A DNA stretch of 64,000 nt from Fluviicola sp. GTDB lineage: Bacteria; Bacteroidota; Bacteroidia; Flavobacteriales_D; Crocinitomicaceae. Of the stretch, positions 3,750-59,445 are shown piece by piece. A model generated the notes under the pieces. It was not told the origin of the DNA and did not search any database. It saw nothing but the letters and a program-made list of their open reading frames with translations. Position 1 is the first letter of the stretch; every line of letters begins with the position of its first letter. The translations under genes were made by a program, and so were the position numbers. The DNA lies in assembly GCF_029266855.1 (NCBI RefSeq), contig NZ_JAQSWB010000004.1, positions 62,001-126,000 of the forward strand, given 5' to 3'.

Positions 3750-3770
3750 CTATAAATTTAAAATAATGTA

Positions 3771-3806
3771 CCTCGGTAAATGGTGGATAATCTTACACTT
3801 ATCCCC
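3771..3806 (+). repeat. Dispersed hairpin repeat, family B copy 1
   Basis: Contains GGTAAATGG followed by GGATAA, eight bases, then TTATCC. Related copies lie at 16385-16417 (same strand) and 57245-57276 (opposite strand). It sits between two convergent genes. A second short hairpin, GAAAGCTTGCTTTC, follows at 3844-3857. Confidence 0.6.
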
Positions 3807-3859
3807 AAATCCTGGATCCATCCGGCTAACACTTGTCGTTATCGAAAGCTTGCTTTCTC

Positions 3860-16311: not shown

Positions 16312-16384
16312 AAGATAAAGTTACGAAAGTCGGGGAATGAATTCGTGGATTTCCAGAAGGATTTTTGCAAACAATAATTAGTTA

Positions 16385-16417
16385 CCATGGTAAATGGGGG
16401 ATAATCTTACTCTTATC
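16385..16417 (+). repeat. Dispersed hairpin repeat, family B copy 2
   Basis: Starts with the palindrome TTACCATGGTAA at 16383-16394 and continues ATGG, GGGATAA, TCTTACTC, TTATC. It matches copy 1 at 3771-3806 over almost the whole length. It lies in the same gap as a family A copy. Confidence 0.6.
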
Positions 16418-16458
16418 TCAAAAACTAAAAAAAAAGCTCTGAAAGCTTTATAAACATT

Positions 16459-16491
16459 GGCCTGTTCGCAATATCGCGAACTTGCAACCAG
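16459..16491 (+). repeat. Palindromic repeat family A, copy 1
   Basis: Core TTCGCAATATCGCGAA at 16465-16480 (one mismatch from the perfect palindrome), followed by CTTGCAACCAG. It shares the core plus the right flank with the copies at 51158-51190 and 51578-51610. It lies about 67 bases upstream of the -33 box of the SGNH/MBOAT cassette. Confidence 0.7.
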
Positions 16492-50533: not shown

Positions 50534-51061
50534 TTAGTGTACAACTTTAAAACGCTCAAATGTAGGTTTAAATTGCTCGTAAGATTGTTTAAAATCTATA
50601 AATTGTTTTTCCAATATCAAACTATGTGCCCGGATCTGTCCTGCTTCCTTTCGTTCCAGCTGAACGTGTTCGTAATAAGTTGATCTGTCGCCTGCACCGG
50701 TTTCAATATCCGATTGCAATTTTTGCAGCCTTTCCCGCTGTTCCATGTTGGCTTTTCTCAACTGTCTGACCTCCGTTGTGAAGAAGTCCGTTGCCCTGTA
50801 GGCCTGAATAAATCCATCGATTTCCTTTGCTGTTTCGATATCAAGGGTATCATTTCCCAATTCGATGTTGAAATTCAACAACATCATTTTTGATTTGCCG
50901 CGCAGTTTCAGGACCTGGTTGGTGTCTAACTGCTGAAGTAAGTTCTGCACAGAATCATTGGTAGCTTTTGAAAACAGAATATCTTCTTCAAACTTACCCA
51001 GCTTGCTTTCGCAAGACAGAAGGAATGCAAGCAGTATTAGAAAAGGGGGGATTCTAAGCAT
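50534..51061 (-). CDS. Coiled-coil lipoprotein of unknown function
   Basis: 175 residues with a lipoprotein signal MLRIPPFLILLAFLLSC (C17). The mature part is charged and mostly helical, with a coiled-coil-like segment around VRQLRKANMEQRERLQKL. It resembles small Bacteroidota lipoproteins with no assigned function. It is upstream of and tightly linked to the TPR gene, so a periplasmic complex of the two is plausible. Confidence 0.7.
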   Translation of the reverse strand: MLRIPPFLILLAFLLSCESKLGKFEEDILFSKATNDSVQNLLQQLDTNQVLKLRGKSKMMLLNFNIELGNDTLDIETAKEIDGFIQAYRATDFFTTEVRQLRKANMEQRERLQKLQSDIETGAGDRSTYYEHVQLERKEAGQIRAHSLILEKQFIDFKQSYEQFKPTFERFKVVH

Positions 51062-51157
51062 GAGACTAAATTACACAAAATGATTGTTTCCATATAATTC
51101 ACAAAAAAAAGTCGGTGTAATTTCCTTCGTTTTTTGGCTAAAAGCCAATTAAAATAA

Positions 51158-51190
51158 GGGCTGTTCGCGATATCGCGAACTTGCAACCAA
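51158..51190 (+). repeat. Palindromic repeat family A, copy 2 (left of the regulator)
   Basis: Perfect palindrome TTCGCGATATCGCGAA at 51164-51179, preceded by GGGCTG and followed by CTTGCAACCA. It is in the same orientation as copy 3, exactly 420 bases away. A TTGGCT/AGCCAA hairpin precedes it near 51135-51150. Confidence 0.75.
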
Positions 51191-51263
51191 GGATAGAAAA
51201 AAAATTGAAATCCTATTGTGATAAAGCCCAATATTTCCTAACTTAAATAGAAATCAGTTAAAA

Positions 51264-51572
51264 ATGGGACTAATTAAACCGAACAATTACAGCAAAGAGG
51301 AACTTAAGTTTTCAAAAATCGCAAATGCCTTAGGACATCCTGCAAGAACCAGAATTATTGAATTAATTCAAGAGGAAATGTTAGTTACTCAAACCTCACT
51401 TATTTCTCACCTTAATCTTAATAAAGCTTCTATTCACAGACATATCAATTGTTTAAGGCGTGCAAATCTTTTGCTAAACAAGTATCGCATTCACTACGAT
51501 GTACTTCACCTGAATTCTGAGCCCTTAAAACAGTTTGAAGAACGAATCCAAAAGCTTTCAAAATCCTCGTAA
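51264..51572 (+). CDS. Small winged-helix (ArsR-type) transcriptional regulator
   Basis: 102 residues, no metal-binding cysteine pair. The domain begins FSKIANALGHPARTRIIELI, as in ArsR-type winged helices, with the recognition helix around LNKASIHRHINCLRRANLL (about 51-69) and a wing at KYRIHYDVLHL. No cotranscribed gene follows; a terminator lies 41 bases downstream. Direct copies of a palindromic repeat lie on both sides, which may be its own operator or the borders of a transferred unit. Codon use is A-rich compared with neighbours. The signal it responds to is unknown. Confidence 0.85.
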   Translation: MGLIKPNNYSKEELKFSKIANALGHPARTRIIELIQEEMLVTQTSLISHLNLNKASIHRHINCLRRANLLLNKYRIHYDVLHLNSEPLKQFEERIQKLSKSS

Positions 51573-51577
51573 ACACT

Positions 51578-51610
51578 GGGCTGTTCGCGATATCGCGAAT
51601 TCGCAACCAG
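51578..51610 (+). repeat. Palindromic repeat family A, copy 3 (right of the regulator)
   Basis: Perfect core at 51584-51599 preceded by GGGCTG and followed by TTCGCAACCAG. It starts five bases after the regulator's stop codon. Confidence 0.75.
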
Positions 51611-51612
51611 CA

Positions 51613-51655
51613 ACACAAAAATCCTCCTCATTAAACGGGGGATTTTTGTGTTTTG
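51613..51655. terminator. Bidirectional terminator between the regulator and the adhesin
   Basis: ACACAAAAATCC (51613-51624) pairs with GGATTTTTGTGT (51640-51651), followed by TTTT. It serves both converging genes. Confidence 0.85.
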
Positions 51656-51668
51656 TTTTCCTGTGAAA

Positions 51669-54600
51669 CTATCTTAACAAACTCAAATGTCCGTTTTTCT
51701 CATGTTTGGTATTCGTCAAATCCCTGAAACGGATTACCCACGTATAAGTCCCGTCCTGAACTTGCTCCGTGCCTGATCCGTAGGAACCATCCCAGCCTAT
51801 TTCCATATTGTGGGATTCAAAAATCAATTCTCCCCAGCGGTTGTATATCTCCATGCTAAAATCAGTTTCTAAAATGCCATATCCTTTTGCTGTGAATGTA
51901 TTGTTGAATTCATCTCCGTCTGGTGTAAACGCATTCGGAACAAACAATTCAAAAGACGGTTTTACGATCACCACCAAATGAGCCTGATCCGGGCAATTGT
52001 ATTGATTATTTGCATTCAGTATAACTGAAAATTCTCCATAAGTATCGTAACTGTGTGTCGGATTAGTTACATAACTCATCTCGTTATCTCCGAAATGCCA
52101 TTCATATTCCGAAGCATTCTGGGATGAATTGGTGAAATGGAACTCAGGATCAATTGTAGTTACTTCCAGTTTGTCTGATGTAAATGAGGCTATCGCCCGA
52201 GGATTAATTGTTACCGTACCACTTGCAGCTGAGGCACTCTGACAGCCATACTGATTAACAATAGTCAGGTTGATCTCGTATTGTCCCGGAGTATTGAACA
52301 CATGTACTCCTACCACATCGTGGGAAATTGTCCCATCACCAAAATCCCAGGTATAAGTCCACAAAGGATCATTCGTTCCGGAATTGGAAACAGAGAAATA
52401 TTCTCCTTGGCAATATGTTCCTAAATCCGGATTCAAATCTACAACCGGAGGATCGACTACCATAACTGATACTTCAGATGTAATTTGCTGATTGCACTGA
52501 TTCACCGCAGAAATGGTATAGGTGGTTGTTGCGGATGGTGTGAGTGTTTGATTGATCGGACAGGAAGAACAATGTGCCCAGGAAAGTACGACTGTTTGAT
52601 CCGGGCCTGTATAAGCGCCATTAATCAGCACATTTTCTCCCGAACAAATAATTGAATCCGAAATAGTTGCATAAATATCTGCCGGGTCTAATGTTATCAT
52701 GGTAATGGTGGCGGAAGAACTAACTACACAGCCATTTATATCTGTAACACTGCAGGTATATGTTGTCTGAACAAGCGGTGAAACCGTTAACTGACCAGCG
52801 TTTCCGCTTTGTGGTGACCAGCTGAATGAATAGGGACTGCTTCCACCACTTACCTGAGTTTCTATAATAACCGGACTACCTGGACAGATAGCAGTGTCTT
52901 GAGAAATAGTCATCGTCAAAAGTGCCGGCTGAGCAACAAAAGTGCTCTGATTCAAAATGCATCCGTTTGAATCCGTAATTGTTACTGAATAAGTTCCCGA
53001 AATCAATCCGTTTACAGAAGCTGTATTCGCACCCGTATTCCAGCTATACTGATATGGACCTGTTCCTCCTGAAACTGATGTCTGAATACTTCCGTCATTA
53101 AACCCATTGCAACTCGGCTGAACGATACTGAAATTATTCATTAATGGCAGAGGTTCGGTAATTATCAATACCAAATCACTTGTACATCCGTTTTCATCAG
53201 TTACAGTAACTGTATAATTACCGGCAACCAAACCGGATGCTGTTTCGGTGACCTGAACAGGATTGGTATTCCAAACATAAGAATAAGTACCATAACCTCC
53301 AGTAGCCTGAACCGTAACAGATCCATCCGATCCGCCGAAACACGTTACATTGGTTCTGTTTAATTCCCCAATTTGAAGAAGTGCAGGCTCGTAAATTTCA
53401 AACGAAAGAAGTGTATCGCAACCAATGGAATTCAATACACTCACTGTATGCGTTCCCGGAGCAAGGTTTGAAGTTGCATTCGAAGAATTATAAGCGCCTC
53501 CGTCAAATGCAAATGTATACGGACCTGTAAATCCGGTCATTGTAACCAAAGCCGTACCATTAGTCATTCCAAAACAGGAAACATCCTGTGTTTCTATCAC
53601 AACTGATTCCAGTACCGGATTAAAAACTATTTGGGTACTATCCGAAACCTCGGGACAACCGGTATTATTAACTGTTTCTACCTGGATCTGAACGATTCCT
53701 GTGCTGAATTCGCCGGCTCCGGGATAGTAATCGACCACTAATGATGTATCACTGGGTGAAAACGTTCCTGATCCACCCGACCACAATACACCTTGTGTAT
53801 TTGATGCGGTGGCGCTAAGTGTAATAGCTCCAATGTAATTTAAACAAACATCTATTTCGGCTCCTGCATCAATTATTGGTACCGGTAACTGGGTTACAGT
53901 CACCGAAGCCTGACGAATAATACAATTGCTTGCATCTGTAATACTGACGGTATGTGTTCCAACACCCAAGCCAGTTGCAGATGTATTGGCCCCGTTAGAC
54001 CACAGATAAGTATATGGAGGTGTTCCGCCCTGAGCCTGGGCTGTTGCAGGAACAGTAAGTTCCGACGGACAAAGTACAGTATCAGGAGCTAAGATTGCAG
54101 CCGTTAACGCAGGTGCAAAATTAACGCTTAGTGTATCACAGATCGGTTCAGTAGTACATCCATTTGCGGCCATACCACAAACCAGGTATTCAACAACCGG
54201 CGGTGCTAGAGAATTGTTTAATGCCAACACCGTATCACAAGCCATTGTACAGGAAAGCAACCCGTTTTGCGAACCTAATACTCCGGGATTAATACTATTC
54301 CAGGTAATTGTGCTCTCATCGTAGAATTGTACCCATAATTCATCGGAACAACCATCTCCCAAGGTCAGATTCGGACCGAAGATCGGGTTGGGAATTGTTT
54401 CAATGGAGAAGGTATTAATATTATTTCCGGGCTTACAAAATGTGAGATGAAAAGGACCGGTTCCATACAAACAAATCGGGGTTCCAACCGCAGTAGGTGT
54501 ACCACAATCAATTTGATAGAACAATGCACCGGGAGGCACTGCACCGGATGCAATATTAAAAACTACAGCAGCAGCATTTGGATTGAGTGTAATTATAAAC

Positions 54601-54812
54601 TCCAAACATTCATCCGGAGCGGATGCCCCACAGCAAAACCCATCTCTGTCGGTACCCGGACTTACCCAATTCATATAAGGACTTGCCGACAAATCGACAT
54701 CAAAGGAAGGTGTTATTGAATCACAATATTGCGCGTTCGCAATAGTCGAGGTGAACATAAGTGCACCAAACAATATGTTCAGTACACCAAAGATTGGCAT
54801 TCTAGTCTTCAT
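51669..54812 (-). CDS. Surface adhesin with SprB-type and PKD repeats and a CHU_C gliding/T9SS C-terminus
   Basis: 1047 residues. After the signal peptide (MPIFGVLNILFGALMFTSTI-ANAQ) there is a lectin-like N-terminal region, then repeated SprB-type modules of about 75 residues, each with a GGTGPYQYSWNTGA-like and GTYSVTITDSNGC-like core (about 255-720). Two PKD domains follow (YTWDFGDGTISHDVVGVHVF and YEWHFGDNEMSYVTNPTHSY). The last ~95 residues are the gliding-motility-associated CHU_C domain (FVPNAFTPDGDEFNNTFTAK, MEIYNRWGELIFES, GWDGSYG, DGTYTWVIRFRD), which directs type IX secretion. It is probably a surface adhesin related to SprB. It may be a functional relative of the protein at the left edge. 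Confidence 0.92.
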   Translation of the reverse strand: MKTRMPIFGVLNILFGALMFTSTIANAQYCDSITPSFDVDLSASPYMNWVSPGTDRDGFCCGASAPDECLEFIITLNPNAAAVVFNIASGAVPPGALFYQIDCGTPTAVGTPICLYGTGPFHLTFCKPGNNINTFSIETIPNPIFGPNLTLGDGCSDELWVQFYDESTITWNSINPGVLGSQNGLLSCTMACDTVLALNNSLAPPVVEYLVCGMAANGCTTEPICDTLSVNFAPALTAAILAPDTVLCPSELTVPATAQAQGGTPPYTYLWSNGANTSATGLGVGTHTVSITDASNCIIRQASVTVTQLPVPIIDAGAEIDVCLNYIGAITLSATASNTQGVLWSGGSGTFSPSDTSLVVDYYPGAGEFSTGIVQIQVETVNNTGCPEVSDSTQIVFNPVLESVVIETQDVSCFGMTNGTALVTMTGFTGPYTFAFDGGAYNSSNATSNLAPGTHTVSVLNSIGCDTLLSFEIYEPALLQIGELNRTNVTCFGGSDGSVTVQATGGYGTYSYVWNTNPVQVTETASGLVAGNYTVTVTDENGCTSDLVLIITEPLPLMNNFSIVQPSCNGFNDGSIQTSVSGGTGPYQYSWNTGANTASVNGLISGTYSVTITDSNGCILNQSTFVAQPALLTMTISQDTAICPGSPVIIETQVSGGSSPYSFSWSPQSGNAGQLTVSPLVQTTYTCSVTDINGCVVSSSATITMITLDPADIYATISDSIICSGENVLINGAYTGPDQTVVLSWAHCSSCPINQTLTPSATTTYTISAVNQCNQQITSEVSVMVVDPPVVDLNPDLGTYCQGEYFSVSNSGTNDPLWTYTWDFGDGTISHDVVGVHVFNTPGQYEINLTIVNQYGCQSASAASGTVTINPRAIASFTSDKLEVTTIDPEFHFTNSSQNASEYEWHFGDNEMSYVTNPTHSYDTYGEFSVILNANNQYNCPDQAHLVVIVKPSFELFVPNAFTPDGDEFNNTFTAKGYGILETDFSMEIYNRWGELIFESHNMEIGWDGSYGSGTEQVQDGTYTWVIRFRDLTNTKHEKNGHLSLLR

Positions 54813-59431: not shown

Positions 59432-59445
59432 TCCGCCGCGGCGGA
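59432..59445. repeat. GC-rich 14-base palindrome
   Basis: TCCGCCGCGGCGGA is its own reverse complement and is far richer in GC than its AT-rich surroundings. A second, looser inverted repeat (CAAATCA ... TGATTTG) follows at about 59450-59485. Confidence 0.5.

Follow-up and report, generated by a model that had tools for sequence, protein, structure and literature searches.

MatP with matS, and Noc, are dispersed-site chromosome factors in which one small protein is combined with tens of short palindromic sites. The element analysed here, located in a 64,000-nucleotide stretch of Fluviicola sp. DNA (the window), is similar in that a small protein occurs together with tens of short palindromic sites, to which its binding is putative. 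It differs in that several paralogous systems seem to coexist and that the gene is bracketed by its own sites.

According to three papers on REPs, REPINs and RAYTs, REPs are placed between unidirectional and convergent ORFs (PMC3733652) and are usually present in more than 100 copies per genome (PMC2817692), and the RAYT gene is single-copy and vertically inherited, with REPIN copies being more numerous in genomes that hold it (PMC8049555). Our element is likewise palindromic and intergenic, its convergent or unidirectional placement is similar, and copies of it flank a gene (PMC3733652); further, the repeat is commoner in genomes holding its gene (PMC8049555). However, the bracketed gene encodes a winged-helix protein of about 100 aa, and the genome's own Y1 gene is unflanked. 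In addition, the GTAG or CGTC tag (PMC3733652) is absent from the consensus of 25 element copies, and the about 40 copies detected are below the number usual for REPs (PMC2817692).

The third point of comparison is the ArsR/SmtB family. By sequence (Pfam HTH_5 and PDB relatives) the bracketed protein is a member of it, and most brackets resemble the palindrome upstream of arsR in this clade, but the CxC metal motif is missing and the site is present in tens of copies, many of them off promoters. A literature search limited to titles and abstracts of open papers revealed none tying palindromic repeats to ArsR-type genes.

Architecture and genomic placement of the element

The core TTCGCGATATCGCGAA is present in the window at 51164-51179 and 51584-51599, both on the + strand, as two identical 16-bp sequences with a spacing of 420 bp. 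A further copy with one mismatch is found at 16465-16480. With up to three mismatches allowed, these are 3 matches versus 0.22 expected, a number reached in 0 of 100 shuffles. The features of the locus are listed below, where R1 designates a sequence model built from 25 aligned copies of the element.

16439..16491, + strand: third, solo element copy (TTCGCAATATCGCGAA); R1 match C3:78432-78494, E 7.9e-16
50534..51061, - strand: left neighbour gene, 175 aa, synteny anchor
51138..51190, + strand: left element copy, core 51164-51179; R1 match C3:113131-113192 (window 51131-51192), E 2.3e-16, training-set member
51212..51263, + strand: promoter-like block directly before the ATG, TATTG..CTTTT..CTAACTTAAATAGAAA, by-eye likeness to paralogues
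51264..51572, + strand: ORF of the 102-aa ArsR-superfamily winged-helix protein (Pfam HTH_5)
51558..51610, + strand: right element copy, core 51584-51599, left part over the gene's 3' end and stop; R1 match C3:113555-113615, E 3.1e-14, training-set member
51669..54812, - strand: right neighbour gene, 1047 aa, second synteny anchor, convergent with the regulator

A search of the own genome (G000), which comprises 4.30 Mb in 14 contigs, gave 32 places for the 16-bp core with at most two mismatches, and none for the reversed pattern as control. From the core search 33 places were picked. Six that looked like chance matches and two unusual ones (C1:1130305, C7:150775) were removed, and the other 25 were aligned; places with three mismatches were kept out, save C8:52312, which was later dropped. 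The R1 search of the own genome yielded 31 places at E <1e-6, 25 of them training copies by construction. At eight more places the same flanks surround a GC-rich palindrome, TTTGTCCGCCGCGGCGGACGAAC, which replaces the core (weakest match C5:58598, E 0.0103).

The 25 copies align without gaps, and their conservation spans roughly positions -26 to +8 relative to the core, which gives a directional element of about 50 bp with the consensus CTGAAACCCTT-N-AAAGGGCTG-TTCGC[A/G]ATATCGCGAA-CTTGCAAC. Most of them (17/25) contain A at the variable position and thus the imperfect palindrome TTCGCAATATCGCGAA, and 8/25 contain G, the perfect form. A sequence-only reading of the window had described same-orientation copies of an element of about 33 bases with a perfectly palindromic 16-bp core around a 102-residue gene, an additional site at 16465-16480, and a right copy starting five bases past the stop codon. 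Both cores, their orientation, the ORF and the additional site, the latter with its one mismatch, were confirmed. The conserved stretch is longer than proposed, however, and the perfect palindrome, although true of the window pair, is the minority form genome-wide. Likewise, the distance of five bases holds for the 33-bp element, but in the full right copy the conserved left part (51558-51583) already covers the final codons and the stop. The same reading had favoured a repeat element over a plain operator, which agrees well with a dispersed, directional repeat at about 40 places in the own genome.

Among the 30 best own copies 29 lie between ORFs and one lies over a 107-aa ORF, as judged with a simple custom ORF caller. 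By orientation of their neighbours, 12 are convergent, 13 tandem and 5 divergent. For comparison, 20 selected copies of another repeat in the congeneric genome G011 comprised 6 convergent, 12 tandem and no divergent ones, with 2 over short ORFs. The excess of convergent over divergent places is 18:5 when both sets are pooled (p 0.011) and non-significant in the own genome alone (12:5, p 0.14). Since the copies lie between ORFs, with 12 convergent versus 5 divergent (n=30), we do not regard the element as a plain set of operators. The dispersed copies are without a gene of their own.

At the level of RNA, an Rfam search of window 51000-51800 on both strands gave no match up to E 1. RNAalifold gave just a 6-bp core stem with 0 compensatory pairs, so we do not claim a structured RNA.

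Several further repeats were observed. Same-orientation pairs of the element, 92-162 bp apart, are present in G000 at C10:423863 and 423955, C1:653109 and 653271, and C11:20086 and 20235. A second abundant palindrome, TCCGCCGCGGCGGA (window 59432-59445), has 56 exact copies in the own genome, including several pairs 67-167 bp apart, and in 8 places it lies within the flanks of the present element and replaces its core. A third, CCGATAGCTATCGGGA-like palindrome is found inside the core or replaces part of it at G000:C7:150775 (L053) and G002:C1:814357 (L143), so that palindromes are nested in palindromes; a form with two mismatches is located at window 48460. At L008, L158-L163 and L060 the elements form part of a larger repeat, about 90-230 bp in length, whose copies are 67-91% alike and vary in the central palindrome. 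Finally, a 48-bp repeat with 81% identity is present at window 3762-3809 and 16376-16423, its second copy lying directly before the third element.

The bracketed gene, its paralogues and their sites

The window protein matches Pfam HTH_5 (ArsR) with 24.8 bits (cut-off 22), and HTH models alone were matched. Its score with NCBIfam HTH_metalloreg, 34.4 bits, is below the cut-off of 55. Its PDB relatives are PagR, YgaV, HlyU, Rv1994c and NolR. No CxC metal motif is present in its sequence, which has one Cys in total; the ordinary ArsR members of the genus (n=11) fit C[IV]C[GN][DE]I or begin with MGATKT. A single-sequence AlphaFold2 model with a mean pLDDT of 56 was set aside. By eye, a promoter-like block, TATTG..CAAATGA.CTTTT..CTAACTTAAATAAGAAA, is common to most of 24 loci before the ATG, and the palindromes above it differ.

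The protein belongs to an ArsR-derived paralogue family with 69 matches in all 14 genomes of the genus. Seven of them are in the own genome, which contains one full-identity copy of the window protein and six paralogues with 29-38% identity. We called a gene bracketed if its flanks, taken as 260 bp on the upstream and 160 bp on the downstream side, shared a direct repeat scoring 28 bits or more. According to this definition 15 of the 69 family matches are bracketed (L199, L200, L201, L202, L203, L210, L214, L218, L227, L228, L234, L248, L252, L253 and L260), versus 5/300 in an unpaired control and 0/83 among other complete ORFs at the same loci (Fisher p 2.8e-6). The ordinary arsR genes of the genus were bracketed in 0/11 cases. 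The 54 matches unbracketed by this test include L213 of G002 (45% identity) and, by counting, three mis-called (L259, L266, L267) and two cut short (L245, L247); L224 has an inverted pair, and L206 and L207 have a long palindrome upstream only. The element is not a generic repeat either: the gene belongs to a family with 15/69 bracketed members versus 0/83 neighbours. Tens of copies in a genome, which together with an absent regulator link should have spoken for such a repeat, were thus found, but the link to the regulator exists.

The bracketing repeats differ by paralogue. Examples are an inverted double unit of CACGTAATATTGCAAATTTACGTG in L218 and L227, CCGTAATATTGCGGGATTACTG in L248 and L252, CGTAATATTGCGGAATTACG in L253, and GGTAATATTGCAATATTAC in L210. 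Outside the genus there is one strong case, L332 (genus g17), with a 54-bp repeat of 85 bits; the other tested loci with at least 28 bits, all of ArsR-type genes, are L355 (29, low complexity), L357 (38), L371 (29) and L378 (32). Bracketing alone proves nothing special, since ArsR-type genes outside the genus (L357, L378, L371) can have an arsR site on both sides.

The ordinary arsR genes offer a reference for the brackets. The sequence ATCGTAATATTGCAATAT is located upstream of all 26 ordinary arsR entries (25 genes, as L212 and L343 are the identical gene) with 0-2 mismatches, versus 6/520 shuffles at up to four mismatches. Part of this site is GCAATAT. In the flank from -230 to -60 this heptamer or its reverse complement ATATTGC was found in 10/15 bracketed paralogues, several of which form near-orthologue pairs (L218/L227, L228/L234 and L248/L252) and are therefore not independent, in 9/38 other paralogues, in 0/11 ordinary arsR genes, where the site is nearer to the ATG, and in 56/1500 shuffles. 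The window's own brackets have GCGATAT instead, at a position where 17/25 copies of the own genome have A, and GCAATAT is also missing from the brackets of L202, L203, L214 and L260. Based on its presence in 10/15 bracketed flanks, most brackets resemble operators of the arsR type that have diverged and were shifted upstream.

A site shared by paralogues and dispersed copies was found a second time in the genus. With up to two mismatches on both strands, CGTAATATTGCRAATTTACG has 54 matches in G011, 67 in G009, 28 in G005 and 0-11 in the other 11 genomes; these counts are complete, a double unit or palindromic form yielding two hits, and the reversed control gave 0 in all 14. G011 and G009 are the two genomes with paralogues bracketed by CGTAATATTGCRAATTTACG. 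A Mantel test of protein versus site similarity with nine representatives gave p 0.003, and p 0.06 without L228, a close relative of L218.

Distribution among relatives and synteny

R1 matches at E 0.01 were found in 9 of 59 genomes (14 of the genus, 45 outside it), and all nine are within the genus: G000 with 42, G002 with 26, G013 with 11, G012 with 9, G005 with 7, G003 and G011 with 6 each, G007 with 4 and G009 with 3. In these counts stricter filters lose weak matches, and the 42 of G000 include reverse hits on the same palindromes. The weak matches may represent different palindromes belonging to the same class. The record CP034120.1, titled Glaciecola amylolytica (a gammaproteobacterium in the NCBI taxonomy), has its element matches at the same places as G002 and is probably mislabelled.

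By their flanks, 9/11 element loci of G013 (L074-L151 with an offset of about 400 bp) and 9/20 of G002 have a counterpart in the own genome. From at least 18 such pairs 14 were aligned, and the core aligns in 13 and fails in L099-L157. The solo copy of the window (16439..16491) has its G013 counterpart at an aligned place (L081-L154) with a core identity of 16/16. The left half of the core is TTCGC in 23/30 own and 8/11 G013 copies, and TACGC in 12/19 scored G002 copies; at the shared place L164/L148 a GC-rich core in the own genome stands opposite TTCGCAATATCGCGAA in G013. Many places are thus common to species though the cores differ, so that the elements are old and their places mostly inherited. 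At the aligned places the cores are 85-88% conserved versus 58-65% for other intergenic DNA, and the element flanks, with 56-62%, are no better. We rejected this as a proof of selection, as the sites were chosen for having an element.

A close orthologue of the window protein was detected only in G002 (75% identity). It is located at the same position and is bracketed by the same pair in the G002 subtype, GGYCAATACGCAATATCGCGA, the common one of that genome (TACGC 12/19). Of 33 positions, the two copies of a bracket pair share 29 and 26 within the two genomes, whereas copies compared across genomes share 20-24. In a two-protein tree the own genome is in a polytomy and G002 and G005 are sisters.

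Between the same neighbours G000 and G002 contain the module, and the unit is missing, with the neighbours adjacent, in G012, G006, G001, G008 and G011. At these module-less sites the anchor genes are 76-186 bp apart, the anchors in G011 being distant (31 and 50% identity). The sequence-only reading had proposed to look for relatives with one copy and no regulator; all five of these sites are without a regulator match, but they also lack an element, as judged by eye and by the absence of R1 matches. G007, G013, G005, G009, G004 and G003 showed no regulator, and the stretch compared did not contain their right anchor; G010 had no match to the left anchor. Elements are kept in G013 (11 matches) and G012 (9), where the nearest relatives of the window protein have at most 36 and 38% identity.

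Possible origin and role of the element

Sequence comparison gives hints that this palindromic repeat family is tied to a regulator rather than to a transposase. The alternative is that a trans-acting transposase, e.g. of the Y1/HUH type, spread a REP- or MITE-like repeat long ago, with the regulator as a frequent landing place or passenger. The placement between ORFs with an excess of convergent sites, as for REPs (PMC3733652), inverted pairs resembling REPINs, with a spacing of 34-35 bp, in G011 and G009, and a Y1_Tnp gene in the own genome, with matches in 11/14 genomes of the genus, are in line with it. However, the own Y1_Tnp gene (C13:47383) has no adjoining element copy, and in G011 the three Y1 places are separated from the closest of the 54 repeat matches by some 50 kb or more. 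Y1_Tnp is also found in G004, G006, G008 and G010, which are free of R1, whereas G012 and G003 have R1 matches and no Y1_Tnp match. Altogether, neither the positions of Y1_Tnp in the own genome and G011 nor its occurrence across the genus revealed a transposase linked to the element. Last but not least, many element places are common to species, and the restriction of bracketing to one protein family would be left unexplained. We therefore consider spreading by a transposase rather unlikely.

It is improbable that the element is simply an operator placed before an autoregulated gene and the target genes of its regulon. The left copy is indeed located upstream of the regulator's promoter-like block, and arsR-type sites precede the ordinary arsR genes. 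But the right copy lies between convergent gene ends, the conservation exceeds the 16-bp site, and 12/30 own and 6/18 scorable G011 copies are convergent, where no promoter is expected, against 5 and 0 divergent ones. The earlier proposal of an operator is supported insofar as the paralogue-specific brackets mostly share a submotif with ATCGTAATATTGCAATAT, but not in its plain form. A small cassette of element, gene and element, likewise proposed earlier, which recombination between its direct-repeat borders would move or remove, fits the presence of the unit in two genomes and its absence in five, four of them with the same neighbours and G011 with distant ones, and is nevertheless very doubtful, because such recombination would leave one element at the empty sites, the module contains a single real ORF and thus no recombinase, the own genome has a single full-identity copy, the dispersed copies carry no gene, and many places are shared by species with no sign of active movement.

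We favour, with a probability of roughly 0.5, an explanation in which the bracketed winged-helix protein recognises the core of this REP-like, dispersed family of elements and occupies it for autocontrol and as a boundary, with the sites drifting along with the protein. In this model, which is built on sequence comparison, the element population would be derived from an ArsR operator. Every bracketed paralogue would possess a diverged site of its own, with one copy upstream of the gene and one shortly after it, and in two or more paralogue groups this site would be dispersed in many places too. By occupying the bracketing copies the protein may control its own gene, and at the dispersed copies, oftener between convergent than between divergent genes, it could act as a boundary or roadblock. 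If the preference of the protein drifts, the sites of that genome would drift along, and such co-evolution may be the cause of their concerted change. The 54 unbracketed family matches, the eight own copies with a GC-rich core, and the elements of G013 and G012, which occur without a close orthologue, speak against this model; in G013 and G012 the gene was possibly lost and the sites could be decaying slowly.

It is tempting to speculate further, although we consider this more doubtful than not, that the system is a transposase-free counterpart of REPIN-RAYT, in which expanding ArsR-derived proteins each have private, dispersed and gene-bracketing sites, largely at gene ends and co-evolving with them, with several populations per genome. 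If a repressor-type protein owns and reshapes genome-wide palindromes, this would provide a testable origin of orphan REP families from operators. It would also offer naturally occurring sets of protein-site pairs in which drift of DNA recognition could be studied, and the protein would be a candidate for a boundary factor where genes converge.
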